From: Streptomyces sp. NBC_00483
GTDB lineage: Bacteria; Actinomycetota; Actinomycetes; Streptomycetales; Streptomycetaceae
Direction of reading: 5' to 3'
Length of the DNA stretch: 64,000 nucleotides
NCBI RefSeq assembly: GCF_036013745.1
Contig: NZ_CP107880.1
Location: forward strand, 4,774,001 to 4,838,000
Shown here: positions 20,065 to 41,700 of the stretch, piece after piece
Position numbering within the stretch: the first letter of the stretch is position 1
How the letters are laid out: every line of letters starts with the position of its first letter
Made by a program: the position numbers and the translations under genes
Notes under the pieces: generated by a model
The model's database searches: none
Seen by the model: the letters and a program-made list of their open reading frames with translations, nothing else
Told to the model about the DNA's origin: nothing

Positions 20065-20096
20065 ACAACTGATCACAGACAGCAGAGGTACCGGCC

Positions 20097-22285: not shown

Positions 22286-22304
22286 GGTCGCCACGAAGGC
22301 GCCG

Positions 22305-25307: not shown

Positions 25308-25334
25308 GCGGCCGCCGTTCGGGACGGCGGCCGC
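25308..25334. repeat. 11-bp inverted repeat
   Basis: GCGGCCGCCGT and ACGGCGGCCGC around the loop TCGGG. Very stable hairpin with terminator-like geometry but no obvious upstream gene. Confidence 0.75.
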
Positions 25335-25805: not shown

Positions 25806-25849
25806 CTGTCCGTGCACCTGCGGTCGGGGCACCACGTGTAGGGAGAGGT

Positions 25850-27062: not shown

Positions 27063-27400
27063 TCCGAATCAGCGCCGCGCAAGAAGGCCGGCATGTACGG
27101 ACCTGCTCGCTTCCCTGCCGAGCACCAGAACTTGCCGTGTCCGTGCTGTTCGTCGGATGGGCTGCGGCGACACTGCCCGATCTGATCGATGCCAGGTCGT
27201 AGGTACGGGCTCCGATTGGCCCGCACCCGGTCGGCCAGACGCGGCGGTCGATAACCGACCATCTCAGTCCGAGTATTTACCCACCCTGCCCTCTTGTGAC
27301 CGTTTGGTGACATTGGTGGTGAGTCTCGTGGCAAGACGCCAGTGCAGAGGAAGTTGCGACTGCCTCCGTACGTGAGCACGAACTGCAAGGAGGAACGAAC
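27063..27400. other. Intergenic region, no gene seen
   Basis: 338 bp between crcB and the DUF4232 gene. It ends with a strong ribosome-binding site (AAGGAGGAACGAAC) for the downstream gene, whose promoter is presumably here. No coding sequence or structured repeat was recognised. Confidence 0.5.
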
Positions 27401-27934
27401 ATGGTCATCTCGCGCGCCACCATCGCCGTCACCGCCGCGGTCGCTTTCGCTGCCGCGGGAACGGGGACGGCTCTCGCATCTGACGCCACATCGTCTGCGA
27501 CGCGAGCCACGCAGGAATGCCAGCCGGGCACTCTGAAGGCGACCACGACGCAGCTCGGGACCGAACAGGCGGGCATGAACCATGCCGGGACGTTCCTGAA
27601 GCTCACCAACACCGGGAACGTCACTTGCGTGATTTCCGGCTACGCGGGCCTCGCCCTGGAAGGCAGCGGCCACACCGCGCTGACGACGCAGACCGAACAC
27701 AGCGACACCTACTTCGCCGCGGACCCCGGGCGGCATGATGTCACCCTGCAGGCTGGCGACTCGGCCTACGCCGACCTCGTGTGGACGCATACCGGAGCTG
27801 ATACTGCAGCCGCCCGCTACCTGCAGATATCGCCTACGGGCGGCAATTCGCACAGCACCGTGGCCTTCAAGCAAGACGTGGACAACGGCGATCTGTCAGT
27901 CACGGCGTGGAGCGACGCTCCGCCCACCATCTGA
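27401..27934 (+). CDS. Secreted DUF4232-domain protein
   Basis: 177 residues. A signal peptide (ATIAVTAAVAFAAAGTGTALA) precedes a DUF4232-type beta-sandwich with two cysteines (ATQECQPGTL, then LTNTGNVTCVISGYAGLALE), and the conserved GGNSHSTVAF near the end. Such proteins are exported and common in Streptomyces, but the function is unknown. The start is fixed by AAGGAGG at the right distance. Confidence 0.85.
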   Translation: MVISRATIAVTAAVAFAAAGTGTALASDATSSATRATQECQPGTLKATTTQLGTEQAGMNHAGTFLKLTNTGNVTCVISGYAGLALEGSGHTALTTQTEHSDTYFAADPGRHDVTLQAGDSAYADLVWTHTGADTAAARYLQISPTGGNSHSTVAFKQDVDNGDLSVTAWSDAPPTI

Positions 27935-28101
27935 GTTGGGTGTGGCTCTCGGCTCTTCCAAGATTTTCGTAGGCGTTGATCGACTGCCCGGTTTCCGCTC
28001 GGCCGGCTGGATCGGCACGGCACGCTGGTGACGTGTGATGTCAATGTGACGGACCTGCTGCCGCAGCTGTCGGCGGGAGCAGCGCAGGGAGAGAGCCATC
28101 C

Positions 28102-28542
28102 GTGGCCTTGAGCAGGCAGACTGACGGGATGGAAATCGTGGGGACGTGGTCGGGCACCGTGTGCGTAGAGAATTCTCTGTTCGGGGCGCAGGAGGACGCC
28201 ACCGTCGGCGAGGAGCCCTGGACGGAACTTGACCTGGACTCAGGCCCTCTGGTTGCCGGTCGCGGCGCTTTGCTCATCGTCAGCCCCTCGATTGATCACG
28301 ACGCTGACGTCACGGTTCAGGTACTGAGCGGCGCGCCCGACGCTCGTGAGCAGGCAGGGTGGGCGACGGCCGGTAGGGCCGTGTACCACAGCACCGGTAC
28401 TGATCTGGCTGTCTGTTCTCTCACACAGGGCTTCGAGTCGACCGGACTCGAGCTCCAGGAGCGCACGTACTCGGTTCGGCTGTTGCGGCGCCAAGTCCAG
28501 ATGGAAGAGCAGAACGACGCATTCCTCATCCAACTGTGGTGA
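28102..28542 (+). CDS. Hypothetical beta-rich protein
   Basis: 146 residues from the GTG at 28102; an ATG at 28129 is an alternative start. Mostly beta-strand, acidic, with two closely spaced Cys and no signal peptide (EIVGTWSGTVCVENSLFG near the front, TYSVRLLRRQVQ near the end). No family is recognised. It is followed by a strong hairpin shared with the convergent nuclease fragment. Confidence 0.55.
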   Translation: MALSRQTDGMEIVGTWSGTVCVENSLFGAQEDATVGEEPWTELDLDSGPLVAGRGALLIVSPSIDHDADVTVQVLSGAPDAREQAGWATAGRAVYHSTGTDLAVCSLTQGFESTGLELQERTYSVRLLRRQVQMEEQNDAFLIQLW

Positions 28543-28549
28543 GCCGGCG

Positions 28550-28584
28550 GGTGGGTGGCGCGATCTGCGATCACGCCACCCACC
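28550..28584. terminator. Bidirectional hairpin terminator
   Basis: GGTGGGTGGCG and CGCCACCCACC form 11-bp arms, and GATC/GATC pairs continue the stem inside. It sits 8 bp past the stop of the gene ending at 28542 and just beyond the 3' end of the convergent nuclease fragment. Confidence 0.7.
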
Positions 28585-28592
28585 GTGCGCTC

Positions 28593-28892
28593 TCAGGTGA
28601 TGCGAACCTGGAACGCGTCGGTGTGCAGGACTCTCTGCGCCTTGTAGAACGCTGCCAGGGCTGCTCCGGCCTTGGAGTTGTCAGTACCCGGCACGTACTT
28701 CAAGGAGTAGTTGCCGTTTCCCGCACCGCTTCCTTCCCAGGTTGCGGCGAAGGGGAATTCGTCGCACTGTTCGTCCGCGTTGGGCGGTGGCAGCTTCTTG
28801 CATTCACGGGCCGTGGTGTTGCGGTTGTTCTTGTACTGGCCGTCCGCCGTGGCGTCCCACTTCGAGTACAGCCGGTAGTTCTCCCTGGTCAA
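28593..28892 (-). pseudogene. NucA/NucB-type secreted DNase, C-terminal fragment
   Basis: About 99 residues ending QVRIT. The segment CDEFPFAATWEGSG, then NYSLKYVPGTDNSKAG and ALAAFYKAQRVL is the C-terminal half of NucA/NucB deoxyribonucleases of Streptomyces. The signal peptide and the catalytic N-terminal half are missing. Homology ends at about 28892, exactly where a different gene fragment on the other strand begins. Confidence 0.7.
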
Positions 28893-29325
28893 CCACTACC
28901 AGCAACAGATGCCGAAGCCCCTGTCCGCCCCATTCGTCACCGCCCACGGCAAGGAACTCGGCCTCGGCCGTGACACCCGGGTATGGCAGTTCCTCAAGGC
29001 CGCCGCCGAACGCCCGATCACCGAGGAGCAGTGGCGGGACTTCCTGCGGATGAGCCCGTGGTTCGAGGACCACAAGCACTTCATGCGGGACCAGGTGACC
29101 GCCTACCGGGAGACGGGACGCCTGGCCGCCGCCACCTACGGCATGGTGCAGGGCAAGGCATCCGTGCGGGACATCGACGAGAAGACAAAACCCTGGATGC
29201 TCAACAGCCTCTACGTCCCCCGCACAGTCCGCCACGAACGAGGCGCCCCACTGCCGCGCACCTACGCCGTCTCCGACGACTTCGCCGCCCTGCAACGCGA
29301 ACAGGACCGCCTCCCGAAAAGCTGA
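28893..29325 (+). pseudogene. Unrecognised gene, probable C-terminal fragment
   Basis: Open frame encoding LVNHYQQQMPKPLSAPF, then VWQFLKAAAERPITEEQWRD and FEDHKHFMRDQVTAYRETG, ending DFAALQREQDRLPKS. It is highly charged, helical, and reads like a genuine protein, but the frame runs directly out of the nuclease fragment without its own start or ribosome-binding site (the first ATG is at 28909). It is therefore likely the 3' part of a gene joined at a rearrangement breakpoint. No family recognised. Confidence 0.45.
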
Positions 29326-29491
29326 TCTGCCCAGACCCCTCCCAGTCCCGGGTGCTGCGGAAGCATGCGTCGCGTGCTCCCCGCTGACGTCCAAGATGAA
29401 GCGGGAACGTCTTGCATGTGCTGGGCGGGCGGTGGCAGCGGCATGCGACACCAGCGAGGGATCCTCAGCGAGGCAGGTTCGGTTCCCGGGC

Positions 29492-30049
29492 TCAGATGCC
29501 GGGCGTCCAGCCTGAGGCTCCCGCCCAGGCTTCGGCCCGCTCGCTGATCTCGGCGATCAGCGGGCCCTTGGCCGCCGCGTAGGCGTTCATGTCGGGCCAG
29601 TCCTGCTCGGCCAGGTGCTGCTTGTGCCGGGCGTAGGCCGCACGGTCGGCGGCATCCCTGCGCAGCCAGTCGCGGAACAGCAGGTGACGGCGCTCCCACT
29701 CGCTTCCGGCCGTGCAGATGTGTACCTGGACGCCCAGGTCGGGGGTGCGCACCATGCGGTGGCCGGGCTGGCGCACGCGCAGGACGTATCCGGCCCTCTC
29801 CAAGGCCAGGAGATAGGCGTCCTCGTCATCGGCGTCCGGCACGCTCAGGTCGATGTCGATGATGGGCTTGGCGACCAGCCCGGGCACGGCCGTCGAACCG
29901 ACGTGGTCGACCCGCCGGGCCACCGGGCCCACCGCGTCGACGATGCGTCGCCGTTCCCGCTCGAACGCGACCGGCCATGCCGGGTCGTAGGCGACAACCC
30001 GGATCTCGCGCTTTTCCTGGCCGCCTATCAACTCAGTCTGATCGCCCAT
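29492..30049 (-). CDS. GrpB-family nucleotidyltransferase-like protein
   Basis: 185 residues from the ATG at 30049. GrpB/UPF0157 signatures: VVAYDPAWPVAFERERRRI, RVDHVGSTAVPGLVAKPIID with the two catalytic-type Asp in IDIDLSV, and HICTAGSEWERRHLLFRDWL. The family has a nucleotidyltransferase fold, and its substrate is generally unknown. It is downstream of the mobilisation genes on the same strand. Confidence 0.88.
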   Translation of the reverse strand: MGDQTELIGGQEKREIRVVAYDPAWPVAFERERRRIVDAVGPVARRVDHVGSTAVPGLVAKPIIDIDLSVPDADDEDAYLLALERAGYVLRVRQPGHRMVRTPDLGVQVHICTAGSEWERRHLLFRDWLRRDAADRAAYARHKQHLAEQDWPDMNAYAAAKGPLIAEISERAEAWAGASGWTPGI

Positions 30050-30182
30050 GACTCCATTACAGCCCAGCGGGATGACGGTCTGTTCCCCGGTCCATGCCAA
30101 TTCGCCCGCGGCCTACAGCTACGAGCCTTGGGTTCACAGTCATCCAGGCACCTGCCAGTGGCTGTCCGTGCCGTCAGGGTGC

Positions 30183-31892
30183 TCAACGGGCACGGCTTGG
30201 TCGGGGTAGGGGCGAGACGGACGCGGGCTGTACCTGCGGGCTGGGTGCCACGTGGGCCCGGTGATCGCTGCGGGCCTGTGCCGCGAGGGCGCGTGCGCTG
30301 GGTGCTTGTCGTGCGGCGAGGCGTTGGATGCGCCAGGTGAGGACCCGGGCCGGTCGGTCGGCGTCGGCAAGCGGGCGTCGGCCGACGGCGCTGCGCAAGA
30401 CCTCCTCGGGGTTGTGCCCGGCCTTCTCGGCTTGGGTGAAGGTCGCGGTGAGCGCGTCGAAGGCGGCGTCCTCGACGATCTTCTCGGCGTACTCGGGTAC
30501 GACGTGGTGGACCAGGCGGATGTGCCGTTCGACGGTGGGGCGGGGCGGCCGTTGCTGGGCGAGAGCGGCCAGGGGTGCAGTAGCCGCTTCGTCGTAGGCG
30601 GCCTGGAGGTCGAGCTGGGTGCGCTGAGCGGCGGCGGCCTGCTGGTCGTGGTGGCGGAGCTGGTGCCATCGGGCAGCAGCGATCACGGCCAGGAGCGCGA
30701 CATCGAGGAACATCGCCAGGACGGCGCCGTCCTTCGGCGACGGCTCGCGCAGAATCGCGCGGACCGCACTGCGCAGGGCGCGAGCATGCTGGTGATCGGC
30801 CCGGATGCGGGAGCGAGCCGCTCGCTCAAACTCCCTTGACGCCCTATGGAGTTGGGCCCGCAGTGGTGCGGGCGCGATGAGGGGCAGGGTGTCGAGGGCT
30901 TCGCCGAGGGCGTTGATGTGGGCTTGGGCGGCCTCGTCATCGGCGTTGCTGTCGAGGTGGTGGGGGATGCGTTCGGTGGCGGCTGTTGCCTGGTGCCAGG
31001 GGTCCGTGCGACGCGCGGCCGTCTGACCGTCGGCGTGCGAGGCAAGGTCGTCGAGTCGCTTTTTGATCTTCGGGAAAGACAGGTCCGGTGCGAGTTCGGA
31101 GCCGGAGAACCGGATCGGCTCGCCGGCCTGGTTGGTGTCGCTGGTGAGAGTGACCGTGTAACCCCGGATGTCGCCGGAGGGGAAGTGCTTCACGTCGACC
31201 TGGACACCGTCGGTGTGAGCGAGCAGGTCGAGAAACTCCTCAGTTCCGCGGGCGGCGGCCACGGCGGTACGAACCGTGGTGCGCAGGCGCTCGCGAGTAG
31301 TGCTGGGCTGCCCTGCGCGCTTGGCCTTCTCCTGTTCGGCGCGGGTGGATCGCCTGGCGGCCGTGCGGTCACCGCGCACCACCTGGAACAGGCCGTACTC
31401 CTTTTCGACCTTGGCGAGTTCGCGGTCGGCGGTGAGGTAGTCGTTCCAGTGCCGGGCCGGGCGCAGGTCGGCGCGGATCGTGGTGGCGGCGATGTGGATG
31501 TGGTCGTCGGCGTGGCGCACGGCGACCCAGCGGCAGCCGTCCGGATCACCGGCGGGGGCGATGCCGGTGGCGGCGACGACGCGGCGGGCGATGTCGGCCC
31601 ATTCGTCGTCGGTGAGGTGGCGGTCGGTTGTGGCGGCGCGGATCGAGCAGTGCCACATGTGGCGTTCGGGCGCGCGGCCGAGGCGTTCGGCCTGTTTGAC
31701 GTGCAGGTCGAGGTCCGCGACGAGCTGCCTGCGGGCGGCGTCGGGGTCATCGGGGGTGCGGCCTGGGTCAGGGGCGAAACCATCCCAGGAGGCGACCAAG
31801 TGCGGGTCGTGGTGGTCGGTGGCCTTCTTGGTGTCGTACAGGTAGCGGATGAGGCCGGCGGTGCTCTTGCCGCCCGTGATCTTCGCGATCAC
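30183..31892 (-). CDS. Relaxase / mobilisation nuclease (HUH type)
   Basis: 569 residues. Starts MIAKITGGKSTAGLIRYLYD, as in MobA/VirD2-type relaxases of actinobacterial elements. The metal-binding HUH motif is RHADDHIHIAATT (His127, His131, His133), with possible catalytic Tyr residues near the N-terminus (Tyr17, Tyr19). The C-terminal half is helical and Ala/Arg-rich, without a primase or helicase signature. It would nick oriT and pilot one DNA strand. It overlaps mobC by 4 bp. Confidence 0.9.
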   Translation of the reverse strand: MIAKITGGKSTAGLIRYLYDTKKATDHHDPHLVASWDGFAPDPGRTPDDPDAARRQLVADLDLHVKQAERLGRAPERHMWHCSIRAATTDRHLTDDEWADIARRVVAATGIAPAGDPDGCRWVAVRHADDHIHIAATTIRADLRPARHWNDYLTADRELAKVEKEYGLFQVVRGDRTAARRSTRAEQEKAKRAGQPSTTRERLRTTVRTAVAAARGTEEFLDLLAHTDGVQVDVKHFPSGDIRGYTVTLTSDTNQAGEPIRFSGSELAPDLSFPKIKKRLDDLASHADGQTAARRTDPWHQATAATERIPHHLDSNADDEAAQAHINALGEALDTLPLIAPAPLRAQLHRASREFERAARSRIRADHQHARALRSAVRAILREPSPKDGAVLAMFLDVALLAVIAAARWHQLRHHDQQAAAAQRTQLDLQAAYDEAATAPLAALAQQRPPRPTVERHIRLVHHVVPEYAEKIVEDAAFDALTATFTQAEKAGHNPEEVLRSAVGRRPLADADRPARVLTWRIQRLAARQAPSARALAAQARSDHRAHVAPSPQVQPASVSPLPRPSRAR

Positions 31893-32539
31893 CCGGCCGC
31901 CTTCGTGGTGACGGCCTGGTTCGCGGCGTTCGCGATGTGGCGGACCGCCGTGCCGACGGCATCCAGGGTGCGATCGGTCTGGGCCAGCAGGGCGCTGTCC
32001 CCAGGGTGTGGATACCCGCCGGAGTTGAGCCTCCAGGCGATCTGGTTGACGTTGCGGCCGATCTTGGCGACCTGCTCACGCAGGGCGTTGAGCTCGTCGA
32101 TGTAGTCGTCGAGCTGGGTGCGCTGGCCGGGGAGAGTGAAGCCGAGGTCACCGTTGATGTGGGCCATGACGAGGGCGCCGACGTAGTGGGCGGCCGCGAT
32201 GTTCAGGGACCGGGCCTTGGCCAGGATGACGGCCTTCTCGTCGGCGCTGTAGCGCACGTCGACGCGGTCTGTGCGCTGCACGGGCATGCGGCTGCGACGG
32301 CGGGCGACGCGGTGCACGGCGGCTTCGTCGGCGGCACGCGGCAGCGGCAGTTCGGCGTCGACGAGAGGCTTCTCCGAAGTGGGCGCCCCCTGGCGCCCGC
32401 GTGCCTCCGCCACCCCTGGGGCGGAGGCTCCCCCGTTGGACCGGCCCTTGGACGGTCCAACGGGATACCTTGCTCCGCCGGTGGGCCCGGTGGTCATCTC
32501 CTGCTGGGCGGTGCGCAGTTCGTCGTGCGACTCATGCAT
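31889..32539 (-). CDS. mobC: MobC-type mobilisation accessory protein
   Basis: Up to 216 residues, with possible starts at 32539, 32497 or 32287. The conserved part is ribbon-helix-helix-like: RVDVRYSADEKAVILAKARS, then MobC features (HYVGALVMAHINGDL, VAKIGRNVNQIAWRLNSGG). MobC helps the relaxase open oriT DNA. It precedes the relaxase with an ATGA overlap. The N-terminal 80 codons include two perfect inverted repeats and low-complexity residues, so the true start could be downstream of them. Confidence 0.88.
   Translation of the reverse strand: MHESHDELRTAQQEMTTGPTGGARYPVGPSKGRSNGGASAPGVAEARGRQGAPTSEKPLVDAELPLPRAADEAAVHRVARRRSRMPVQRTDRVDVRYSADEKAVILAKARSLNIAAAHYVGALVMAHINGDLGFTLPGQRTQLDDYIDELNALREQVAKIGRNVNQIAWRLNSGGYPHPGDSALLAQTDRTLDAVGTAVRHIANAANQAVTTKAAG
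32403..32463. other. Candidate oriT: two adjacent perfect inverted repeats
   Basis: GCCTCCGCC/GGCGGAGGC (32403-32428) is followed at once by CCGTTGGACCG/CGGTCCAACGG (32433-32463, loop GCCCTTGGA). Two strong hairpins side by side at the 5' end of mobC is the usual position and form of a relaxase target site. No nic consensus could be assigned. Confidence 0.45.
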
Positions 32540-32587
32540 GGGCTGGTTCTCCGGGAGTGCGAGGCCGAGATCGAGGAGGTCTGGAAG

Positions 32588-33361
32588 TCAGGCGGCTTCC
32601 GCGCCGAGTTCTGGTCGACCGGCGGCGGCGTCGAGCTCCGTCTGGACGAGGCCCTTCAGCTGGTCCGCTTCCTGTCGCCCGATGCTGAGGCCCTGGTTAC
32701 GGAAGGCGGTCTCGATGTGGCGGCGTGAGGCGCGTTCGTTGCGGCCCAGGGGTGCGGTGCGGGCGATGTCGAGCCGGTCTGCGGAGGCGTACTCGAAGGT
32801 GAACTCTTCGGTCGTGGCTGGGGCCTCAGGAGCGTCAGCCACGTCGGTAAGGCCCGAAGCGGCGCCGGTGGCGTCTGGTACCACGTCGGTGGCCTCGGCT
32901 TCCACTTCGGGCGTGGGATGGCGGCGGACGACGAGGTAGAGGTGGACGGCGCCGGCCAGAGCGAGTGGGGCGATGGCCGAGAGCGCTCCGACGGTGACGT
33001 CGTCGAGCCGGAGGCCGTCCCCCGGGTGGGTCTGTTCGTTGAGGCGTACAGCGTGCAGGGCGTTGGCCCAGATGCTGGTGATGGTGGCGGCGCCGACGAG
33101 GGTCCATACGTAGGCGCGTGAAGGGGTGGGGGCGGTGCGCAGCATGAGCAGAGCGCCCACGCCGATGCCGATGAACCCGTCGATCACAAGCGGGAAGGCG
33201 TACGTGAGCAGCCCGCGGATGTGGATGGCCACAGCCATCTGCCGCAGGGCGTCGTAGGAGAGGGCGAAGGCGAACGCGGCGAGCAAGGCGATGCCGGCGC
33301 GGATCGCTGCGGTGCCCGCGGCCGGGGCCGTGGGCGTGGCCGGGGTGGTGCGGGAGGGCAA
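32588..33361 (-). CDS. DUF2637 membrane protein with C-terminal DNA-binding-like tail
   Basis: 257 residues from the TTG at 33361, chosen because GGAG lies eight bases upstream. The N-terminal half has four transmembrane helices in the DUF2637 pattern (FAFALSYDALRQMAVAIHI, then FPLVIDGFIGIGVGALLML). The C-terminal half is acidic and then helical (ERASRRHIETAFRNQG). DUF2637 proteins are characteristic of integrative elements and plasmids of Streptomyces, where they are thought to act in transfer. The gene lies between replication- and mobilisation-type genes. Confidence 0.85.
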   Translation of the reverse strand: MPSRTTPATPTAPAAGTAAIRAGIALLAAFAFALSYDALRQMAVAIHIRGLLTYAFPLVIDGFIGIGVGALLMLRTAPTPSRAYVWTLVGAATITSIWANALHAVRLNEQTHPGDGLRLDDVTVGALSAIAPLALAGAVHLYLVVRRHPTPEVEAEATDVVPDATGAASGLTDVADAPEAPATTEEFTFEYASADRLDIARTAPLGRNERASRRHIETAFRNQGLSIGRQEADQLKGLVQTELDAAAGRPELGAEAA

Positions 33362-33401
33362 GGTTCGAACTCCAGAAAGATGCTTTGCGGGACTGTGAGG
33401 G

Positions 33402-33477
33402 GAGCGTTCACGCGGGGTCACGCGAGGGGGCGTACACGCGGGCCCCCTTCTAAAGGGGGGCCCGCGCGTGAACGCTC
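33402..33477. repeat. Nested inverted repeats with GCGTG(A/T)ACG-type repeats
   Basis: The outer arms GAGCGTTCACGCG and CGCGTGAACGCTC are perfect. Inside, GCGGGCCCCC and GGGGGCCCGC form a second stem. Further short repeats follow on the right to 33605 (GCGTGTACGG twice, GTGAACG three times, GTGTACGCC). All this is packed into the 263 bp between the DUF2637 and DnaB-like genes, as in an iteron origin or regulatory site. No other feature is seen there. Confidence 0.65.
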
Positions 33478-33624
33478 GGGTGCGTGTACGGCGTGAACGG
33501 TCCCGTGATCGTTTGACCTGCGGTTTTTCCGTGTCCGTGTACGCCGCGAGCGGTTCATGGCGCCGGTTGCGCGTGAGGGGCGCGTGTACGGTTCCGTGAA
33601 CGCTCTGCAGGGGCCGGGGACGGT

Positions 33625-35148
33625 TCAGCCGACGGCGGTGAGGTGGCGGGCGGAGGCGTAGTAGCGGGCCTGCTGGCCGCCCCCGGATCCTCCGGCGATG
33701 CCGTCGGCGCGAGTGGCCAGGCCGGTGTCGACGAGGCGGGTCAGATGGCGGCGTGCCTTCTCCACGTCGGCACGCTCGGGCTCGGCCCCGCCAGTGAGGG
33801 TGGCCGCCAGCTCGCGGACGGTCATCCCGTTCACGGCGTTGCGCAGCAGGACGGCGGGATCCCGGCTGGGGTCGACGGTGGTGGTGCCGCGCTTGTGGTC
33901 GTGGGTGACGTCCAGCGGGCCGATCTCCCCGGTGGGGGTTTTGAGGTGGTGCAGGGTGACGGCGGGGTCGCCGGCCCGGCCGGTCACGAACAGGACGCTG
34001 CCCGCTCCGGCCGTCAGCCACGTGGAGCCGTAGACCTGGTCGAGGGCTGGGCGTTGGCCGCGTGGGGCGTCGGCGGTGGCCTTGCGCTGGTGGTGCAGCT
34101 CCAGGATCTCGACGCCGCCTCGCAGGGCGCGCATGCGGGCGTTGTGGAAGGCGACGGCGAGGCTGTCGTCGACCATGGTGCTGACCGCGTCCTTGAGGCT
34201 GTCGATCACGATGGTGTCGGCCTGGTGGGCGGCGGCGAGGTCAGCGAGGAGGTCCGGCTCCTTGTCGAGGGTGGCGGGCAGCGGACCCTGCCAGACGACG
34301 AGCCGGTCCCGGAGGATCTTCTCGTCGGTGTCGAAGACGCGCCGTGCCATGGCCTTGGCGATCTGCTTGGGCCGGTCCATGGCCAGGTAGAGGACCCGCC
34401 TGCTGGGGGCGACCGGCATTTCCAGGACCGTCTCCTGCAGGCCGAGGCGGGCGAAGATCACCTGGTGGGCCAGGGTGGTCTTCCCGACCCCCGGTGCGCC
34501 GACGATCATCAGGCTCTCGCCGGGCGCCCAGATGGTCTGTTCCCGGGTGCCCCACAGGGGTTCGGCGTCCGCGCCGGTCTCGCGCACGAAGCACCAGCCG
34601 TCGACCGCGAAGCGCGACAGGCGCCCCTGCCCCGACGCGAGGGCGCGCTCACGTTCGGAGCGCATCTCGGTTTCCACCTCGCTGCGGAGCGCCTCGGGAT
34701 CGGCTCCCGGTTCCCGGGCGCGCTGCACGGTGTGGACTGCGAAGGAGAGCAGGCGGCGCAGGTCGGCCTTCGCGCGGACGATCTGTGCGTGGTGTTCGGC
34801 GCTGCCGATGCCATAAAGGGCGTTGGCGAGCTGGTGCAGGTGGGCAGGGCCGCCGATTCGCTGCAGGTCGCCCTGCTGCTGGAGTACCTCGGTGAGCACG
34901 ATCGGGTCGGTCGGCTTGTCCTCGCGGTGCTGGGCGAGGAGCGCGCGCCAGATGGTTTCGTGCGCGGGCCGGTAGAAGGCGTCGTCGCCCAGGACGGGGC
35001 GGACCGCGTCGATGACGGCGCTGTCGTGCATGCAGGCGCCGAGCACCGCGCGCTCGGCGTCCACGTTGTAAGGCGGCTCGGCCGCGTCGAGCGTCGACTC
35101 GGGACCGTCCTCGTAGCGGGATGGCGTGTTCGGCCGGTTGTCGGCCAT
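33625..35148 (-). CDS. DnaB-like replicative helicase / RepA-type ATPase
   Basis: 507 residues. Residues about 26-130 match the DnaB N-terminal domain (NVDAERAVLGACMHDSAVID, IWRALLAQH). A RecA-like ATPase follows with Walker A GAPGVGKTT at 217-225 and Walker B-type VIDSLKDAV. The C-terminus has a winged-helix-like segment (MTVRELAATLTGG, then ARRHLTRLVDTGLATR). Fusion of a DnaB N-domain to a RepA/AAA_25-like ATPase is typical of actinobacterial integrative elements and suggests the element can replicate after excision. Confidence 0.88.
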   Translation of the reverse strand: MADNRPNTPSRYEDGPESTLDAAEPPYNVDAERAVLGACMHDSAVIDAVRPVLGDDAFYRPAHETIWRALLAQHREDKPTDPIVLTEVLQQQGDLQRIGGPAHLHQLANALYGIGSAEHHAQIVRAKADLRRLLSFAVHTVQRAREPGADPEALRSEVETEMRSERERALASGQGRLSRFAVDGWCFVRETGADAEPLWGTREQTIWAPGESLMIVGAPGVGKTTLAHQVIFARLGLQETVLEMPVAPSRRVLYLAMDRPKQIAKAMARRVFDTDEKILRDRLVVWQGPLPATLDKEPDLLADLAAAHQADTIVIDSLKDAVSTMVDDSLAVAFHNARMRALRGGVEILELHHQRKATADAPRGQRPALDQVYGSTWLTAGAGSVLFVTGRAGDPAVTLHHLKTPTGEIGPLDVTHDHKRGTTTVDPSRDPAVLLRNAVNGMTVRELAATLTGGAEPERADVEKARRHLTRLVDTGLATRADGIAGGSGGGQQARYYASARHLTAVG

Positions 35149-35246
35149 ACTGGGCCTCAGCTCCTCTGCTCGCGGGCCATACGGGACGGCAATCCCGGCC
35201 TCGCGTGTTGATCGCTAGGGATGGCGGTTGAGAGGTTTGCGCTTGA

Positions 35247-35274
35247 AGCCCCCGGCACTGCCGGGGGCTTTTTC
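35247..35274. terminator. Rho-independent terminator
   Basis: AGCCCCCGGCA-CT-GCCGGGGGCTTTTT: a near-perfect GC stem with a short loop, followed on the plus strand by five T residues. It separates the DnaB-like gene promoter region from the XRE gene and would stop plus-strand transcription entering from the left. Confidence 0.85.
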
Positions 35275-35348
35275 GTGCCCACGCATCAGTACGGGCGCCG
35301 CCTTGGGCGCCTTGCGCGGGATCATCAGCATGCCACACGAATTGCAGA

Positions 35349-35376
35349 TCGCAGTATTGCTCTGCGTATCGCAGAG
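35349..35376. promoter_or_regulatory. Probable operator of the XRE regulator
   Basis: The palindrome CTCTGCG-TAT-CGCAGAG (35360-35376) and a repeated ATCGCAG (35348-35354 and 35369-35375) lie about 65 bp upstream of the XRE gene, in the divergent space shared with the DnaB-like gene. This fits a helix-turn-helix repressor that controls both directions. Confidence 0.5.
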
Positions 35377-35437
35377 TAGATGTTACTGTTGAGGAGTTCC
35401 TGCGAACGGCAGAGAACCGCTACGAACGGAAGGAGCA

Positions 35438-35959
35438 GTGGTGCCGGAGGAAGAAGCGCCCGAAGACGGCGTCCTGCTCAGCGGCGAGGCGAATGTCGCC
35501 ACGCGCATCAGGGTGGAGCGCGAGGCGCGCGGCTGGAGCACCAACGCCGTCTCCGACCACCTGAACGAGGCCGGCTTCGACATGAACCCGTCCGCGGTCT
35601 GGCGCATCGAGAACGGCAAGCGCCGCATCAACCTCGACGACGCCATCGGCTTCGCCGAGGTCTTCGGCATCGACCTGCGCAACCTCGTGGGGCCGCCACA
35701 ACTGGCCGCCAAGGCGCGCGCCATGGAACTCATCGACGAGGTGGTGGACGCGTTCCGCGCGACGCAGAGAGCCAACATGGCATTCACCGAGGCGCGCGAC
35801 GCCCTCGACACCTACCTCACCGAGCACCCCGACATCCGCGACGAAGCCGACCTCATGGTCCAGAGCGCCATCGCGGAGGAGGCCGAAAAGACCATGCAGA
35901 AGATGCACGGCCCTCCGTCCGGCGAACACGACAACGACACCCCCGGCGACGAGGCGTAG
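35438..35959 (+). CDS. XRE-family helix-turn-helix regulator
   Basis: 173 residues. The start is one of two tandem GTG codons after AAGGAGCA. The helix-turn-helix is at about residues 20-70: RIRVEREARGWSTNAVSDHL, then NPSAVWRIENGKRRINLDDA. A helical tail follows with an acidic C-terminus. It is divergent from the DnaB-like gene and is the best candidate for the element's maintenance/excision repressor. Confidence 0.88.
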   Translation: MVPEEEAPEDGVLLSGEANVATRIRVEREARGWSTNAVSDHLNEAGFDMNPSAVWRIENGKRRINLDDAIGFAEVFGIDLRNLVGPPQLAAKARAMELIDEVVDAFRATQRANMAFTEARDALDTYLTEHPDIRDEADLMVQSAIAEEAEKTMQKMHGPPSGEHDNDTPGDEA

Positions 35960-36228
35960 CCCTCCGTAGGCCCAACCCCGCGCGCCCGCGCCGAGCCCGC
36001 AAACCCTCGGCATGAGCAGCTCACTCACATCCCTGGCCATCAATCGGCGAGCCGGTGTTGCCGCACCCACGCCCGCCGGACCTCGAAGAGGATCCACTCC
36101 TTGCGCCACCCCCTCCCCACCCCACATCGACCTTCGCTCGAAGGCCGCAGCCTCCCTCGCCCTGTCCCACCACCGCCCGCTCCCCCAAGCGGCGGCCACA
36201 GCGGGAACGGTGAGGGAGGTCCGGCCCT

Positions 36229-36333
36229 TTGACCGAGGACGAGTGGCTGCGCCGCGTAGAAGCTCAACTCCCTGACCGGGACGAGGAGTGGGTCGAGGAC
36301 CTGCTCCGGATCTTCGGCATAGAACGTGCATGA
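36229..36333 (+). CDS. Small paralogue of the protein at 9488, TTG start
   Basis: 34 residues beginning at TTG behind GGGAGGT (eight-base spacing): TEDEWLRRVEAQLPDRDEEW, then VEDLLRIFGIERA. Of the first 28 positions about two thirds match the protein at 9488, including W6, L7, AQLP, RD, EWV and RI. Too short for ordinary gene finders. A strong terminator lies 10 bp downstream, supporting a real transcription unit. Function unknown. Confidence 0.7.
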   Translation: MTEDEWLRRVEAQLPDRDEEWVEDLLRIFGIERA

Positions 36334-36343
36334 GAACGAATGA

Positions 36344-36387
36344 GAGCCGGGCTCCAGCCAGCTTGATTGCTGGCTGGGGCCCGGCTC
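36344..36387. terminator. Strong hairpin terminator
   Basis: GAGCCGGGCTCCAGCCAGC and GCTGGCTGGGGCCCGGCTC pair over 19 positions (one mismatch) around the loop TTGATT. It begins 10 bp after the stop of the small TTG-start gene. Confidence 0.85.
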
Positions 36388-36527
36388 CCGTTCGTGACCG
36401 CACACTGAGGCTTTGCCAACCTCAGATTGGGCAGGTCGAGGGGTGCGTGGGGCGAGACAGGGCCTACACCCACGGAGGCGTCTCCGGACGGCACACCGGC
36501 CAACTCGGGCCTGAGTGATGGACTCGC

Positions 36528-37079
36528 TCAGCGTGCTGGGACGTGCACGGTGAAGCGGACTTTGGTGGAGCCGAGCGTCTCGGTCACCTTCCAGCAGCCG
36601 GGCTCGGGGAAGTTGATGACCGTCGGCCACCACTGCCGGCCATCGTCGGCGGTGGCAAATCCACCAGTACTGCTGCGCGCGGAGCCGGGGCGGTCCAGTC
36701 GTTCGACGTCGACGTGCGGGGTGCCCTTCTGATCAGTCATCTGCCCGTGGGCGTCCAGCGTTATCGACGCGTACTTCGTGCGGTATCCCTGTTCGCGTTC
36801 GTCCGCGTGATCCAGAAGGTCTGGTCTGGCCACCCATAAGTCATCAGCGCCGTACCATCTGCGCTTCTTGTCGAAGTCCTGCACAGCGGCTGGCACGGAG
36901 TCGGAAGAGACGGGAGCGGTGTCGGTGCAGGCTGCATTTGTCCTGCCAGGAGCATCCGGCCGGCCTGTCGAGCAGGAGGGCGAAACCGGCTGGGGTGGCA
37001 TCGAGGTCGAACAGCCGACGGCCAGCAACACCAACGGGCCAACCCAGGACGCTGCTCCTCGTGCCATCCGGCTTCGCAT
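36528..37079 (-). CDS. Putative lipoprotein
   Basis: 183 residues. The N-terminus (ARGAASWVGPLVLLAVGCST) is a signal sequence with lipobox LAVGC. The mature part has KYASITLDAHGQMTDQKGTP and ends in GCWKVTETLGSTKVRFTVHV, beta-rich with several Cys. Surface-anchored protein of unknown function, at the IS5-side end of the element core. Confidence 0.7.
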   Translation of the reverse strand: MRSRMARGAASWVGPLVLLAVGCSTSMPPQPVSPSCSTGRPDAPGRTNAACTDTAPVSSDSVPAAVQDFDKKRRWYGADDLWVARPDLLDHADEREQGYRTKYASITLDAHGQMTDQKGTPHVDVERLDRPGSARSSTGGFATADDGRQWWPTVINFPEPGCWKVTETLGSTKVRFTVHVPAR

Positions 37080-37122
37080 GCGCCTCAGTCTTCCACGGCG
37101 GTGAGCTCCAGCGGGTGCGTCC

Positions 37123-37893
37123 TCAACCTGCGATCGAGTTGGTGCGGTGCAGGGTGAGGACGGCCCGGACGAGGCTGGTGATGCGGGTCGTCGAACAGCG
37201 GATCTTACGCAGGAGCCGCCAGGTCTTCAGGGCTGCCATGGCCTGTTCGACGAGAGCCCGGATCTTCGCGTGGGACCGGTTCGCCGCTTGTTGGCCTGCG
37301 GAGAGTGTCTCCCATCGGCCCCAGTGCGGGATTCGGATCGTGCCGCCGGCGCCGCGGTAGCCCTTGTCCGCCCAGCAGGCGATCTGCACCTGGTCGAGAG
37401 CGTCGATGATGCCGTGCTCCCGAGCTGCCCGAACATCGTGGACCGCACCGGGCAATGCGGGTGACGCCCACAGCAGCTGGCCGAATGGATCCGCGAGGAC
37501 CTGCACGTTCATCCCGTGCCTGCGGTGCTTGCCGGAGTAGAACGGCCGGTCGGCGGCTATACGGTCGATGGGCAGGAGCGTTCCGTCCAGCAATACGTAC
37601 GCCTCGGTCGACGCTGCCCCGACGGCCTCGGTCAGCGTCGGTGCGAGCGCCGCGAGCAGGTCGACTGCTTCGGTCACGTAGCGGTAGACCGTGCTCGTTC
37701 CAACCCGGAAACCTGTCGCAAGTTGGGCATAGGTCGTCCCGTTCCGAAGATGCGCCAGCGCGAGCAGTGCCTGCCTGCCAGAGCTCAGTCGGCGCCAGCG
37801 GCTCCCGATCCGGCGACGGTGCTCACTCAACCGGGCGGCAAGGAAGCGTAGGGAACGGCTGGACACGTCCAGCCCGCACGGATAGACAAGCAC
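37123..37893 (-). CDS. IS5-family transposase (DDE)
   Basis: 256 residues, apparently intact. An N-terminal helix-turn-helix (NGTTYAQLATGFRVGTSTVY) precedes a DDE domain with the first Asp in YVLLDGTLLPIDRI, the second in SPALPGAVHDVRAA or ACWADKGYRG, and the acidic helix KIRALVEQAMAALKTWR. This is the DDE_Tnp_4 layout. Terminal inverted repeats were not clearly found; TGAGCT near 37100 and its reverse complement near 37958 are weak candidates. Confidence 0.88.
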   Translation of the reverse strand: MLVYPCGLDVSSRSLRFLAARLSEHRRRIGSRWRRLSSGRQALLALAHLRNGTTYAQLATGFRVGTSTVYRYVTEAVDLLAALAPTLTEAVGAASTEAYVLLDGTLLPIDRIAADRPFYSGKHRRHGMNVQVLADPFGQLLWASPALPGAVHDVRAAREHGIIDALDQVQIACWADKGYRGAGGTIRIPHWGRWETLSAGQQAANRSHAKIRALVEQAMAALKTWRLLRKIRCSTTRITSLVRAVLTLHRTNSIAG

Positions 37894-38018
37894 AGGAAGC
37901 CTCTGGAGAGTCGGGCAATCTTGGTCGTGAACCCGTCTACCAGGGGCTTCGCCTCTGCGTCAGCTCAACAGCCCAACTCAGAAGTCGAGTTGGCAAAGCC
38001 TCACTGCCTACATTGCCG

Positions 38019-39467
38019 TCACCTGAGTACCGGCTCGATGTCCGCCGGATCGAAGACCGGCCCGTTGGACGCCGGCTTGATGACAACCGCACGGAAGACC
38101 TTGAGCACGGCTGCCCGCTGCTGCTCGATCGTCAGGTCCTCCCACCGCTCCCGTACGTCGACGGGCCCGGCCTCAAAGGTCGCCACCTCGGCCCGGTGGA
38201 GGGCACGCTCCCTCTGGAGCTCCGCCATCTGCTTCTCAAGGTCATCGGTGAGGGCGACGTAGCGGGCAGCGGACATCCGCTTCTCCTGCCATGCCTGCTT
38301 GAACTCCGCCATGTCCCTTTCCAGGGAGGCCAGTTCCTCCTCCTTGGTCCACTCCGGCGCACGCGTCCGGACATCCGTCAGCGCCTTGTCCGAGCTGAGG
38401 AACACGGCGTTCCTGATGAGGCGGTCGACCGGCTCCCCCGACCTGGCCACTCCCCCGCATCCCCCGTCGTTCTTCCCGGGGCAGGCGTACCTGAACTGCG
38501 ACGACGTCTTCGACTTCCGGTACGAGGGGAAGGCGCGCATCTTCGTGCCGCATCGACCGCACCGGGCGATGCCGGAGAGCAGGTACTTGGTGGCGTAATC
38601 CCGGACCACCCGCCCCTCCGTCTCCTGCCGGACCTTGTCCATCAGGAGATGCCACTCGTCCGGCGTGACCACCGGTTCCCAGTCGCCGACAACGGGCTCG
38701 CCGCGCTCATCGAGGAACAACTCCCCCTGGTGCATGCGGTAGCCGCAGACCCGCGGGTTCATCAGCATGCGCTTGATCTTGGAGTCGTCGAAGAAGCCGC
38801 CGCTGTGCGACCGAATTCCCTTGTCCCGCCACTCGCGCGCGATCGTCGCCCAGCGGATGCCGCCCAGGAAGTCCCTCACCGCCTTGCGGAGGTTCTCGGC
38901 TTCCTCCGGCACCACGGTCCTGCGGTCCTCACGACTCCATCCGTACGGAGCCCGGCCGCCCGGCAGCTTTCCCTGCGTGGCCAGTTCGAGGTGCTTGCGC
39001 TTCGTACGTCGCGAGGTGTCCGCCGAGGACTTGTTGGCGATGGTGACCTTGATCCGCGCGATGAACCGGCCGTTCTCCGTGGACAGGTCGATGTCCGACG
39101 CCGATACGGAGTCGAAGACGAGATGACGCTTGCGGCGCTCGGCGTCCTCGTACTCATCGATCCACGCTTCGAGTTCGCGCGGCTGCCGTGTGAAGCGGTC
39201 GATGTCCCAGGCGACGACACCGTCGATCCGCCCGGCCTTGAGGTCCTCCAGCATCTTCCGGAACTCCGGGCGCACGGTCCTGCGCTTGTACGCGGACAGG
39301 TCGTTGTCCTCATAGACCTTGGCGACCTCCCACCCCCGCGCGGCACAGTGCAGTCGGCAGTCCTCCTCCTGCCGCACGACGCCAAGGCCCTCGGCCTCGT
39401 CGTCCTTGCTGATGCGGGTGTAGATGCCCACCTGGATGCCACCGGAGGGCCCCCGTCGTTCTGCCAT
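38019..39467 (-). CDS. Large serine integrase of element 1
   Basis: 482 residues from the ATG at 39467. The resolvase catalytic domain has IYTRISKDD with the nucleophile Ser near residue 20 and the Arg-rich WDIDRFTRQPRELE. The recombinase domain follows (PYGWSREDRRT, IRSHSGGFFDDSKIKRMLMN). The zinc-ribbon domain has CGRCGTKM and CPGKNDGGCGG, and the long coiled coil (TKEEELASLERDMAEFKQAW) is the part that governs directionality in this family. It lies about 650 bp from attR, as expected of the element's own integrase. Confidence 0.95.
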   Translation of the reverse strand: MAERRGPSGGIQVGIYTRISKDDEAEGLGVVRQEEDCRLHCAARGWEVAKVYEDNDLSAYKRRTVRPEFRKMLEDLKAGRIDGVVAWDIDRFTRQPRELEAWIDEYEDAERRKRHLVFDSVSASDIDLSTENGRFIARIKVTIANKSSADTSRRTKRKHLELATQGKLPGGRAPYGWSREDRRTVVPEEAENLRKAVRDFLGGIRWATIAREWRDKGIRSHSGGFFDDSKIKRMLMNPRVCGYRMHQGELFLDERGEPVVGDWEPVVTPDEWHLLMDKVRQETEGRVVRDYATKYLLSGIARCGRCGTKMRAFPSYRKSKTSSQFRYACPGKNDGGCGGVARSGEPVDRLIRNAVFLSSDKALTDVRTRAPEWTKEEELASLERDMAEFKQAWQEKRMSAARYVALTDDLEKQMAELQRERALHRAEVATFEAGPVDVRERWEDLTIEQQRAAVLKVFRAVVIKPASNGPVFDPADIEPVLR

Positions 39468-39589
39468 GCGCGGGATCGTCGCACACCGTGAACGCATACA
39501 TCAAACGCCGTTCTCACTACCATTTACTCCCTGGCCGAGGTTCCCTGCACCCATCCCGAACTGCAGGCGGCAAGTGGCAGACTGGCGGT
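39468..39589. promoter_or_regulatory. Divergent promoter region of integrase and DUF3151 copy
   Basis: The 122 bp between the integrase start (39467, minus) and the DUF3151 copy start (39590, plus) must contain both promoters. A TTTACT/TTGATG-like AT-rich patch near 39500-39530 stands out against the GC-rich surroundings. This means the rescue gene and the integrase share control sequence. Confidence 0.5.
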
Positions 39590-40009
39590 ATGACGACGCA
39601 CAAGAACCTGCTGGGTGGACCGGACCCGACGTACCTTCCGGAGAACGAAGAGGCGTACTGCCTCCTGGGCGAGGAGTCCCAGTCGCCGGCCGATGTCGCG
39701 GCCAAGTACCCGACCTTCTCGCTCGCCTGGGCCATGCTCGCCGACGACGCCTTCGAGGCGGGGCGTGTGGTCGAGTCGTACGCGTACGCGCGCACCGGTT
39801 ACCACCGCGGGCTCGACTCGCTGCGCCGGGCGGGGTGGAAGGGGCACGGCCCCGTCCCTTGGGACCACCAGGCAAATCGCGGGTTCCTGCGCTGCCTCGC
39901 CGCCCTCGCCCGCGCCGCCGGCGCGATCGAGGAGAAGGACGAGACCGAGCGGTGCTGGCAGTTCCTCAAGGACAGCAGCGAAGAGGCGTACACGACGCTG
40001 AAGCGCTGA
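39590..40009 (+). CDS. DUF3151 protein, element-borne replacement copy
   Basis: 139 residues, complete. It matches the interrupted host protein along its whole length: KNLLGGPDPTYLP, AAKYPTFSLAWAMLADDAFE, ESYAYARTGYHRGLDSLRRA, GWKGHGPVPWDHQANRGFL and FLKDSSEEAYTTLKR. The host equivalent of PWDHQAN is PWEHEPN; the host target codon GAG is GAC here (39863-39865) and the bases around it differ (CCTTGGGACCACCAG). It would restore the function lost on integration while not being a target. DUF3151 function is not known. Confidence 0.93.
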   Translation: MTTHKNLLGGPDPTYLPENEEAYCLLGEESQSPADVAAKYPTFSLAWAMLADDAFEAGRVVESYAYARTGYHRGLDSLRRAGWKGHGPVPWDHQANRGFLRCLAALARAAGAIEEKDETERCWQFLKDSSEEAYTTLKR

Positions 40010-40055
40010 CCAGCGCGGCGGTAGCCGTTGCAGCCGCCGTAGCAGCACAAAAAAA

Positions 40056-40083
40056 TGCCGCCGCTTCTTACGAAGCGGCGGCA
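40056..40083 (-). terminator. Terminator at the right end of element 1
   Basis: TGCCGCCGCTTC and GAAGCGGCGGCA are perfect 12-bp arms around TTAC. On the minus strand the stem is followed by seven T residues. It would stop minus-strand transcription coming from the truncated host DUF3151 gene and may also serve the plus-strand replacement copy. Confidence 0.85.
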
Positions 40084-40101
40084 CCGAGTGCACGATTACA
40101 T

Positions 40102-40121
40102 CTTCCGCCACTCTCCCACGG
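40102..40121. other. attR of element 1
   Basis: Plus strand: element arm CTTCCGCCA (40102-40110), CT, the core CTC (40113-40115), then host CCACGG. The core is the GAG codon following TGG in the minus-strand DUF3151 gene. The arm is the exact reverse complement of that at attL. Confidence 0.88.
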
Positions 40122-40385
40122 CACCGGGCCGTGGCCCTTCCAGCCGGCACGGCGCAGCGAGTCGAGGCCGCGGTGGTAGCCGGTGCGGGCGTAGGCGTAG
40201 GACTCGACGACGCTGCCGCGCTCGAACGCGTCGTCGGCGAGCTGCGCCCAGGCGAGCGAGGAGGTGGGGTACTTCGCGGCGACGTCCGCAGGGGCCGTGC
40301 CGGACGCGAGCAGCTCGCGGGGCTCCGGGTCGTCCGGGAGCTCGGTCGGGGGCGGACCGCCGAGGAGGTTCTCGTGAAGGTTCAT
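40113..40385 (-). pseudogene. DUF3151 gene, 5' fragment cut off by element 1
   Basis: 91 codons, starting MNLHENLLGGPPPTELP and running to GHGPVPWE at the attR core. The frame then reads into the element for 14 meaningless codons (SGGRCNRALGAAAS) and stops at 40068, inside the terminator hairpin. The missing 46 residues are at 9427-9287. The upstream neighbour is fba, as expected in the native order. Confidence 0.93.
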
Positions 40386-40510: not shown

Positions 40511-41542
40511 CTACTTGATGCGCGTACCCGTCGAACGCAGGTTCTCGCAGGCCTGGACGATGCGGGCGGTCATGCTCGCCTCGGCCTTCTTGCCCCACAC
40601 GCGCGGGTCGTACGTCTTCTTGTTGCCGACCTCGCCGTCGACCTTCAGGACGCCGTCGTAGTTCTCGAACATGTGGCCCGCGATGGGCCGCGTGAAGGCG
40701 TACTGGGTGTCGGTGTCGAGGTTCATCTTCACGACGCCGTTCTCCAGCGCGGTCGTGATCTCCTCGACCGTCGAGCCGGAGCCGCCGTGGAAGACGAAGT
40801 CGAACGGCTTCGAGCCGGCCGGCTGACCGTACTTCGCGGCGACGCCCTCGTTCAGCTCCTTGAGCAGGTCGGGGCGGAGCACGACGTTGCCCGGCTTGTA
40901 GACGCCGTGCACGTTGCCGAAGGACGCGGCCAGCAGGTAGCGGCCCTTCTCGCCCAGGCCCAGGGCCTCGGCGGTGCGCAGCGCGTCGTCGACCGTGGTG
41001 TAGAGGTTGTCGTTGATCTCGTGCGAGACGCCGTCCTCCTCGCCACCGGTCGGCGTGATCTCGATCTCGAGGATGATGTTCGCGGCCTTGGCCTTGGCGA
41101 GCAGCTCCTGCGCGATCGTGAGGTTGTCGGCGAGGGTCTCGGCCGAGCCGTCCCACATGTGCGACTGGAAGAGCGGCAGGCCGCCGGCCTCGACGCGCTT
41201 GGCGGAGATGTCGAGCAGCGGGCGCACGTAGCCGTCCAGCTTGCCCTTGGGGCAGTGGTCGGTGTGCAGCGCGATCTTGTTGCCGTAGCGCGCGGCGGCG
41301 ACGTGCGCGAACTCGGCGAGCGCCTCGGCGCCGACGACCATGTCCTTCACGCCCTGGCCCGAGAGGTACTCGGCGCCACCGGTGGAGATCTGGATGATGC
41401 CGTCGGACTCGGCCTCGGCGAAGCCCTGAAGCGCCGCGTTCAGCGTCTGCGTCGACGAGACGTTGATGGCCGGGTAGGCGAACTTCCCCGCCTTGGCCCG
41501 GTCGAGCATCTCGTTGTACTGGTCCGGGGTTGCGATGGCCAT
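40511..41542 (-). CDS. fba: Fructose-bisphosphate aldolase, class II
   Basis: 343 residues from the ATG at 41542 (GAGGAGACGGCAG upstream). Zinc-dependent aldolase of glycolysis and gluconeogenesis, cleaving fructose 1,6-bisphosphate. Zinc-site motif HTDHC at residues 93-97, further ligands in SFGNVHGVYKPG and FHGGSGS, and the catalytic-loop NLDTDTQYAF. Full length, cytoplasmic. Its native downstream gene is DUF3151, now interrupted. Confidence 0.97.
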   Translation of the reverse strand: MAIATPDQYNEMLDRAKAGKFAYPAINVSSTQTLNAALQGFAEAESDGIIQISTGGAEYLSGQGVKDMVVGAEALAEFAHVAAARYGNKIALHTDHCPKGKLDGYVRPLLDISAKRVEAGGLPLFQSHMWDGSAETLADNLTIAQELLAKAKAANIILEIEITPTGGEEDGVSHEINDNLYTTVDDALRTAEALGLGEKGRYLLAASFGNVHGVYKPGNVVLRPDLLKELNEGVAAKYGQPAGSKPFDFVFHGGSGSTVEEITTALENGVVKMNLDTDTQYAFTRPIAGHMFENYDGVLKVDGEVGNKKTYDPRVWGKKAEASMTARIVQACENLRSTGTRIK

Positions 41543-41700
41543 CTGCCGTCTCCTCGTAAAGCGCGCGGGTTGCGGGTTCGGGTTGTCGTTCTGGGTGACC
41601 CTCACCAAGGGGGTGACATCATCGTCGACCCCATCCTTCCAGACTCGGCCAAATGCTCCAGCCCTGCGAAGTGGACCGGGTCGGTCCGGGTGAGTCCGGG

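Follow-up and report, generated by a model that had tools for sequence, protein, structure and literature searches.

What becomes of a host gene when the mobile element that cuts it in two carries a complete gene of the same family? The question is raised by a 64,000-nucleotide stretch of Streptomyces sp. NBC_00483 (hereafter the window, part of one 10.2 Mb contig), where the host DUF3151 gene is split by an element of 30.7 kb that encodes a large serine integrase, and a complete DUF3151 gene (hereafter the copy) lies within the element. A sequence-only reading had taken the copy for a replacement that restores the lost function and whose own target site has been recoded against the integrase. 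As set out below, the replacement holds up on comparison with the rest of the genus and the special recoding does not. Our main reading, to which we give a probability of roughly 0.8, is that the copy would replace the host gene while the element is present and would then be left as the only functional DUF3151 gene once the element and the host halves have decayed, a course probably taken several times within the genus.

Structure of the locus and of the element

On the minus strand the host genes run from the aldolase through DUF3151 to tryptophan 2,3-dioxygenase. The features of the interrupted locus, by position in the window, are:

8600..9136, minus strand: tryptophan 2,3-dioxygenase of the host flank (the part used as query; PF03301), orientation reference
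9287..9431, minus strand: 3' part of the host DUF3151 gene, standard type, cut at attR, last ~47 residues (genome-search match 9293-9442)
9433..40117, no strand: the whole integrated element, about 30.7 kb, from its junctions and the genome search
30183..31892, minus strand: relaxase, MobA/VirD2 type (PF03432, E 3e-8)
32588..34021, minus strand: DUF2637 protein (PF10935, E 5e-10)
33625..35148, minus strand: DnaB-like helicase N-terminal domain plus AAA domain (PF00772, E 5e-26)
38019..39497, minus strand: large serine integrase, 492 aa (Resolvase, Recombinase and Zn_ribbon_recom domains; alternative start 39467)
39498..39589, no strand: divergent intergenic region, with the candidate copy promoter TGGCAGACT directly 5' of the copy ATG
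39590..40009, plus strand: the complete element-borne DUF3151 gene (copy), 139 aa (PF11349, E 7e-56)
40056..40083, minus strand: strong hairpin followed by a T-run (fold of the plus-strand region, z -5.4)
40118..40385, minus strand: 5' part of the host DUF3151 gene, standard type, cut at attL, first ~89 residues (frame continues to 40068 in element sequence)
40511..41608, minus strand: class II fructose-bisphosphate aldolase of the host flank (PF01116), orientation reference

The copy matches PF11349 with 188 bits (gathering threshold 28.4) over model positions 2-125 of 127, and a search of the whole genome with it found DUF3151 in three places: besides the copy there were only the two host parts, the 5' one at 73% and the 3' one at 66%; the PF11349 match of the 5' part falls within 40068-40385 on the minus strand (E 1e-35). 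A complete copy at 39590-40009 beside a host gene in two parts, as had been claimed, is therefore real, and the sequences quoted for the target site, CCGTGGGAGCACGAG in the host and CCTTGGGACCACCAG in the copy, are correct, the host form being assembled from both junctions and present uninterrupted in relatives. Searches of NCBIfam (E 0.001) gave no family for the copy and only matches below cut-off for the integrase, relaxase and helicase, and no solved structure matched the copy significantly.

From attL inwards the element consists of the hairpin, the copy, the integrase, the cargo and attR. The hairpin is terminator-like and would face transcription arriving from the host 5' part. Within its 492 residues the integrase carries the Resolvase N-terminal, Recombinase and zinc ribbon domains, all above the Pfam cut-off, which fits a large serine recombinase. 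The relaxase also exceeds its cut-off, and the 20 interior ORFs scanned (20 of 109, at least 110 aa) contain no conjugation protein; from these features the element is probably an integrative mobilizable element. A prophage was considered and rejected, as those 20 ORFs hold no structural domain and the best phage integrase reaches 39%. DUF3151 was absent from 50,697 phage records and no relatives of the integrase were found in viral contigs, while plasmids gave four DUF3151 records, in other genera and at 49-63% identity. The element also contains two insertion-sequence transposases (15518-16414 and 37126-37893, one of IS110 type and one of a DDE type) and, at 18724-20768, a sensor histidine kinase with a LuxR-type response regulator. 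A small ORF at 9488-9643 adjoins attR, and since a similar stretch is seen by eye at the right end of locus L006 and of the other right-end loci compared, the right end may be conserved and include this ORF.

The integrase and the copy are arranged divergently. Their starts had been placed 122 bp apart; this distance applies only if the integrase begins at the internal Met at 39467, and from the ATG at 39497 it is 92 bp. A block like GTGGCAGACTG is seen by eye a few bases before the ATG in nearly all of 47 copy-type genes from the genus, and further upstream the sequence varies between small groups. We suggest that the block could be a leaderless promoter that accompanies the copy; a similar block also precedes the ATG in several standard genes among those displayed.

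The copy and the integrase travel together

Close relatives of the integrase were found at five loci of the species-genome collection, all in Streptomyces, and in four of 392 genomes of the genus, the window's own included; these 392 genomes hold a further 24 relatives at 39-47% identity. Altogether the close relatives occupy eight distinct loci (87-100% identity, window included), of which that of Streptomyces sp. NBC_01016 (L004) is a near twin of the window, being almost identical at integrase, copy and aldolase. The question put by the sequence-only reading, whether related elements always carry the copy, can be answered for these eight: all have it, divergently beside the integrase, and the two starts are separated by ~90-100 bp. 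At the 24 distant integrase loci no DUF3151 match was found within up to 1.5 kb on either side (for L036, cut at a contig end, this covers the downstream side). The cargo, on the other hand, varies. Relatives of the window's relaxase occur at 95% in L004 and 57% in L054, and in L006, L008 and L053 just 0.2-0.6 kb separate the integrase from the host 3' side, with no matches there to the cargo of the window.

The integration junction

Four elements allow both junctions to be compared, and the insertion falls at the same point in all of them, with a very short shared core. Read in the host direction, the left junctions run CCGTGGGAG then AGTGGCGG, AATGGCGG or AACGGCG, and the right junctions TTCC(G/A)CC(A/G)TTCTCCTG(A/G)GAG then CACGAGCC. 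The attachment sites of the window are placed by this comparison at:

40095..40140, minus strand: attL, probable central TG 40117-40118
9410..9460, minus strand: attR, probable central TG 9432-9433

The attP predicted from the four elements (two of them the near twins) has mirrored arms around TTCTCC-TG-GGAGAA, a palindrome that places the central dinucleotide at the TG of a Trp codon. The crossover is thus probably at this TG, just upstream of the GAG codon at which it had been put earlier. Two elements (in G268 and G393) have TGGGAG at attR, as predicted from a TG crossover. The window and its near twin in G392 have TGAGAG, which could reflect either one later substitution or a crossover inside GAG. 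The attR arm recurs in L006 and L007 and also in L053, where there is a deletion at the core.

Copy-type genes are inverted at the DUF3151 locus

DUF3151 was found in 381 of the 392 Streptomyces genomes, the same 11 being negative whether the copy or a standard protein served as query. By comparison, by eye, of the two best E-values per genome, the copy type is the best match in 45 of the 381 (~1 in 9) and the standard type in 336. Only four of the 45 copy-type genomes have a close integrase. In the other 41 the copy-type gene is the sole complete DUF3151, and two of these (G370 and G376) also keep host fragments; a second match in G297 (E 9e-4) looks spurious. The type is diverse, with identity as low as about 65-68% in G045 and G297.

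Its orientation is distinctive. Relative to the aldolase and dioxygenase flanks the copy-type gene is inverted in 49 of the 50 loci with a readable flank, made up of 46 of 47 (eight with integrase, 39 without), both G045 and G297, and G432. Standard genes are co-directional with their flanks in all 75 readable cases (41, 26 and 8), among which the 26 include a truncated gene and another that a frame break divides. Flanks of up to 6 kb each side were fetched for 39 of the 41 integrase-free loci and for 41 standard loci, and of 1.5 kb for G045 and G297. The 41 standard loci are the upper part of the match list, nearest the copy query, and the 26 are the weakest standard matches; the counts cover neither the copy-type locus of G465 and the locus of G427, whose flanks were unreadable, nor five further standard loci (G095, G133, G223, G273 and G292). 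A Fisher test on 116 genes, made before the last loci were added, gave 4e-32; as related genomes are non-independent, this shows only that the pattern differs from noise. The single exception is a draft assembly (L096, in G377) in which the aldolase lies on the other side of the copy-type gene and on the same strand, through either a local rearrangement or misassembly. DUF3151 was also co-directional with the aldolase in all 12 outgroup loci in which the latter was in range (the other eight of the 20 fetched gave no aldolase match), so that the standard orientation is ancestral. The inverted state is what the geometry of the element would leave. In one standard locus (L140:4737-4846, in G041) the space between the aldolase and the intact standard gene also holds an extra standard-type DUF3151 N-terminal piece, which lies on the opposite strand.

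Phylogeny of the copy type and of its locus

In a tree of DUF3151 proteins that also includes 41 of the standard type and 20 from outgroups, the 47 copy-type sequences form one clade (100/94); the alignment is short, the bootstrap was unsettled and many forks are weak. The nearest outgroup to this clade is a long-branched sequence of another family (G518; 92/80), and the source of the copy type may therefore lie outside the genus. The neighbouring aldolase gives a different picture. In its tree (45 of the 47 copy-type genomes, 40 of the 41 standard ones and 12 outgroups) the two types are intermingled, with a minimum of 24 label changes, of which at least 6 are forced when only well-supported branches are used, and a single aldolase clade of copy-type genomes is rejected (p-AU 0.00017). 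The aldolase is a single nearby marker and its tree a quick one with many weak forks, and the number of displacement events is only loosely bounded, as recombination near the locus could inflate the count. The trees, the alignments and the scan for remnants described below cover the copy-type genes other than those of G045 and G297.

Proposed intermediate stages between element and bare inverted gene

The loci can be arranged by what remains of the element and of the gene it entered. Integrase and both host halves are present in the window, in L004 (right end L051), in L005 (right end L052, on another contig) and in L054 (right end L246). In L006, L007 and L053 the integrase is intact and the host 3' part remains, the 5' half not being found, and L008 has an intact integrase with neither half found. 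Among the 39 integrase-free loci scanned, five keep scraps: L082 (G376) has an integrase C-terminus together with parts of the two host halves, in L089 the integrase is represented by two pieces and in L087 by 53 bases from its 5' start, and L090 and L086 keep host-gene pieces, from the 3' side in L090 and a short one from the 5' side in L086. The other 34 gave no counted scraps. The 41 standard loci, scanned as controls, gave no integrase scrap and one extra DUF3151 scrap, that of L140 mentioned above. Wherever a host fragment could be typed (the window, L004, L005, L054, L007, L053, L082 and L090) it is of the standard type. The count rests on the main scrap scan; blastn with element pieces, which included host flanks and so gave a noisy result, was used only for the L087 piece and for agreement with that scan. 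Short copy flanks common to L086, L089, L090, L091 and L095 were kept out of the count, as were a piece common to L096, L103 and the control L153 and a marginal host-gene match in L114 (E 0.004).

Through these stages the copy itself is maintained. It is open from start to stop in all 47 copy-type genes, which had been chosen as nearly full length, and its divergence is mostly synonymous, with a median dN/dS of 0.12 in element copies and 0.20 in integrase-free copies, compared with 0.15 in standard genes. The earlier proposal of a standing replacement is borne out by the presence of the copy in eight of eight close relatives, by this mostly synonymous divergence and by its being intact in genomes in which only decayed remains of the element and host halves, or none at all, are left. 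In a copy-type subgroup (L108, L111, L114 and L115) the N-terminus is host-like (MNLHENLLGGPPPT) and the Trp at the crossover is replaced by Phe or Tyr; gene conversion with a host 5' remnant is a possible source.

The target site in the copy

The sequence-only reading had also held that the copy differs from the host in bases at the crossover while the protein there is conserved. The changes are in fact non-silent, the standard W-E-H-E-P reading W-D-H-Q-A in the copy, and residues changed in the copy vary in outgroups too. Over the 18 bases right of the crossover, hosts differ from each other by 4% in pairwise comparison, against 13% gene-wide, so this is a conserved part of the standard gene. 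Element copies differ from hosts by 32% over the same bases, which is ordinary beside their overall difference of 30% from standard genes. Sliding windows never single out the attB segment: in raw divergence of the element copies 28-62% of windows match or exceed it, and in excess over the divergence within standard genes 23-38% of windows do so at the nucleotide level and 14-26% at the protein level (16-40% and 16-28%, respectively, for all copy-type genes). At the codon named earlier, GAG occurs in 8 of 47 copy-type genes and GAC in 2 of 41 standard ones, and the residue beside the crossover is S in 20 copy-type genes, D in 18, E in 8 and T in 1, with E, S, D and A in outgroups. The copy in the window retains the probable central TG. 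Special recoding of the target is not borne out by these comparisons. It is plausible that the copy lacks a good attB; it would resist the integrase only if the enzyme reads the bases that differ. No interruption was found in the 49 copy-type genes examined, which were picked as near full length and for which none is expected at the observed rate of insertion.

Proposed displacement of the host gene and its alternatives

We propose the following course of events. The serine integrase would recognise a conserved site within the host DUF3151 gene and split the gene by inserting the element there. The full copy that rides in the integration module, separately expressed, would supply DUF3151 for as long as the element stays; this presumes expression of the copy and a function shared with the host gene. 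Precise excision, if it occurs, would restore the host gene and remove the copy. After damage to the element or to the host halves, selection would keep the copy as the only functional gene, and the process would end with a DUF3151 gene in reverse orientation at the original locus, where the gene of the element has displaced that of the host. Most integrase-free loci would on this account come from decay of an element rather than from chromosomal exchange of an already displaced locus, although many of the scattered cases could be due to chromosomal recombination of a locus that was inverted beforehand. For the 34 scrap-free loci, and for G045 and G297, the attribution to an element rests on clade membership and orientation. 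In about one-ninth of the sampled genomes of the genus a copy-type gene would thus have taken the place of the chromosomal one at the native locus, most likely on several occasions. We are evenly divided on a stronger form of the proposal, in which the integrase aims at one widespread host gene an orthologue of that gene, the swap having been made independently in no fewer than 6 lineages of the genus and perhaps in up to 24. In this form the element also changes from a dispensable insert into the carrier of the only complete DUF3151 gene of the cell, a one-way ratchet that in addition removes attB from the population.

Events could in principle have run the other way, with an early lineage flipping its own DUF3151, which then diverged and was later captured by the element, so that the integrase-free copy-type genomes would be the native lineage, spread by descent or chromosomal recombination. 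Such a history accords with the 34 of 39 scanned loci that hold no scrap of element or host gene and with the age and diversity of the type (about 65-68% identity in G045 and G297). We nevertheless regard it as quite unlikely: a captured gene would have to land at the same locus in the native gene's orientation, scraps of integrase, host gene or both lie beside the copy in five loci, and the typable host fragments at eight loci are all of the standard type, which argues that a standard gene was displaced more than once.

Could the copy serve chiefly to block re-insertion of the element or a relative through its altered attB, with rescue secondary? In 45 of 47 copy-type genes the E93 of the standard protein is replaced by R, Q or A, there are base changes no more than 12 bp away from the probable crossover, and none of the 49 copy-type genes is interrupted. 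Against this, the divergence of the attB segment is ordinary, the crossover-side codon varies freely, the copy of the window keeps the probable central TG, and zero interruptions would be expected in any case at the observed rate among genes picked near full length; an immunity device is unlikely. Even less probable, to the point of being hard to credit, is a paralogue acquired by chance with a role of its own, unrelated to the split gene. The copy is only about 65-77% identical to the host fragments, as such a passenger might be; yet its family is exactly that of the gene cut, it accompanies this integrase in 8 of 8 cases and was not seen at the 24 distant loci, and about 41 genomes have no other complete DUF3151.

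DUF3151 and known integrative elements

The occurrence of DUF3151 in 381 of 392 genomes of the genus and in 87 of 98 genomes sampled from the class suggests that it is of value to its hosts. The 11 negative genomes in the genus, by protein or Pfam search, are mostly fragmented drafts (nine of 550-1380 contigs and G168 of ~120), with the exception of G010, which has two contigs at 93% completeness. A further near-complete genome, G180, has no copy and a standard-type gene of which only the first ~77 residues are present (L245, G180:C2:5008000-5024000, DUF3151 at 9802-9572). Strict essentiality is doubtful in view of this partial gene and of the lack of the gene in G010. The literature, in a search that took in few subscription papers, yielded passing mentions of DUF3151 and no characterisation; we take Rv0360c to be the member of the family in M. 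tuberculosis. Among the matches listed, judged by titles and the beginnings of abstracts, there was no precedent for displacement by integrative elements or for an element-borne full copy of a target gene.

Orthologous (xenologous) gene displacement, in which a foreign orthologue replaces the native gene, is the general process to which our case may be compared; here a site-specific integrase would aim the copy at its own orthologue, and the inversion marks the event. Related solutions are known among integrative elements. Some are described as carrying a replacement part of the target gene in attP, as for tRNA genes and icd (PMC10111431); they share with the present element integration inside a conserved gene without net gene loss, but there the gene part fuses to the host remainder, whereas here a whole separate gene is carried, with its own start, antiparallel and far diverged. 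An element that restores its target in this manner was itself considered for the window and rejected, as the host gene stays split and only the separate copy could provide its function. Serine-integrase integrative mobilizable elements are said in a review to disrupt genes dispensable to the host, and rumA is an example there of a site inside a protein gene (PMC5704250). The present element resembles them in its serine integrase, its relaxase and its site in a protein gene, and differs in that the target is found in most genomes sampled (the 381 of 392 and 87 of 98 above) and a full copy is supplied. Elements that regulate gene integrity (helper-embedded satellites, PMC10111431; sigK/skin, PMC5025042) likewise split a protein gene that excision would restore, but there is no sign here of excision acting as a switch, and a second intact gene makes excision unnecessary.

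If our main reading is right, the locus illustrates how a mobile element can substitute its own gene for a widespread host gene where the latter resides, apparently more than once and through intermediates that lead from the intact element to a bare inverted gene. It would explain the patchy, phylogeny-defying DUF3151 allele in the genus, and it cautions that a phylogeny built on a near-universal gene can in part be that of a mobile element. It also points to a serine integrase whose natural attB lies inside a gene present in 381 of 392 Streptomyces genomes, in 336 of them as the standard type.
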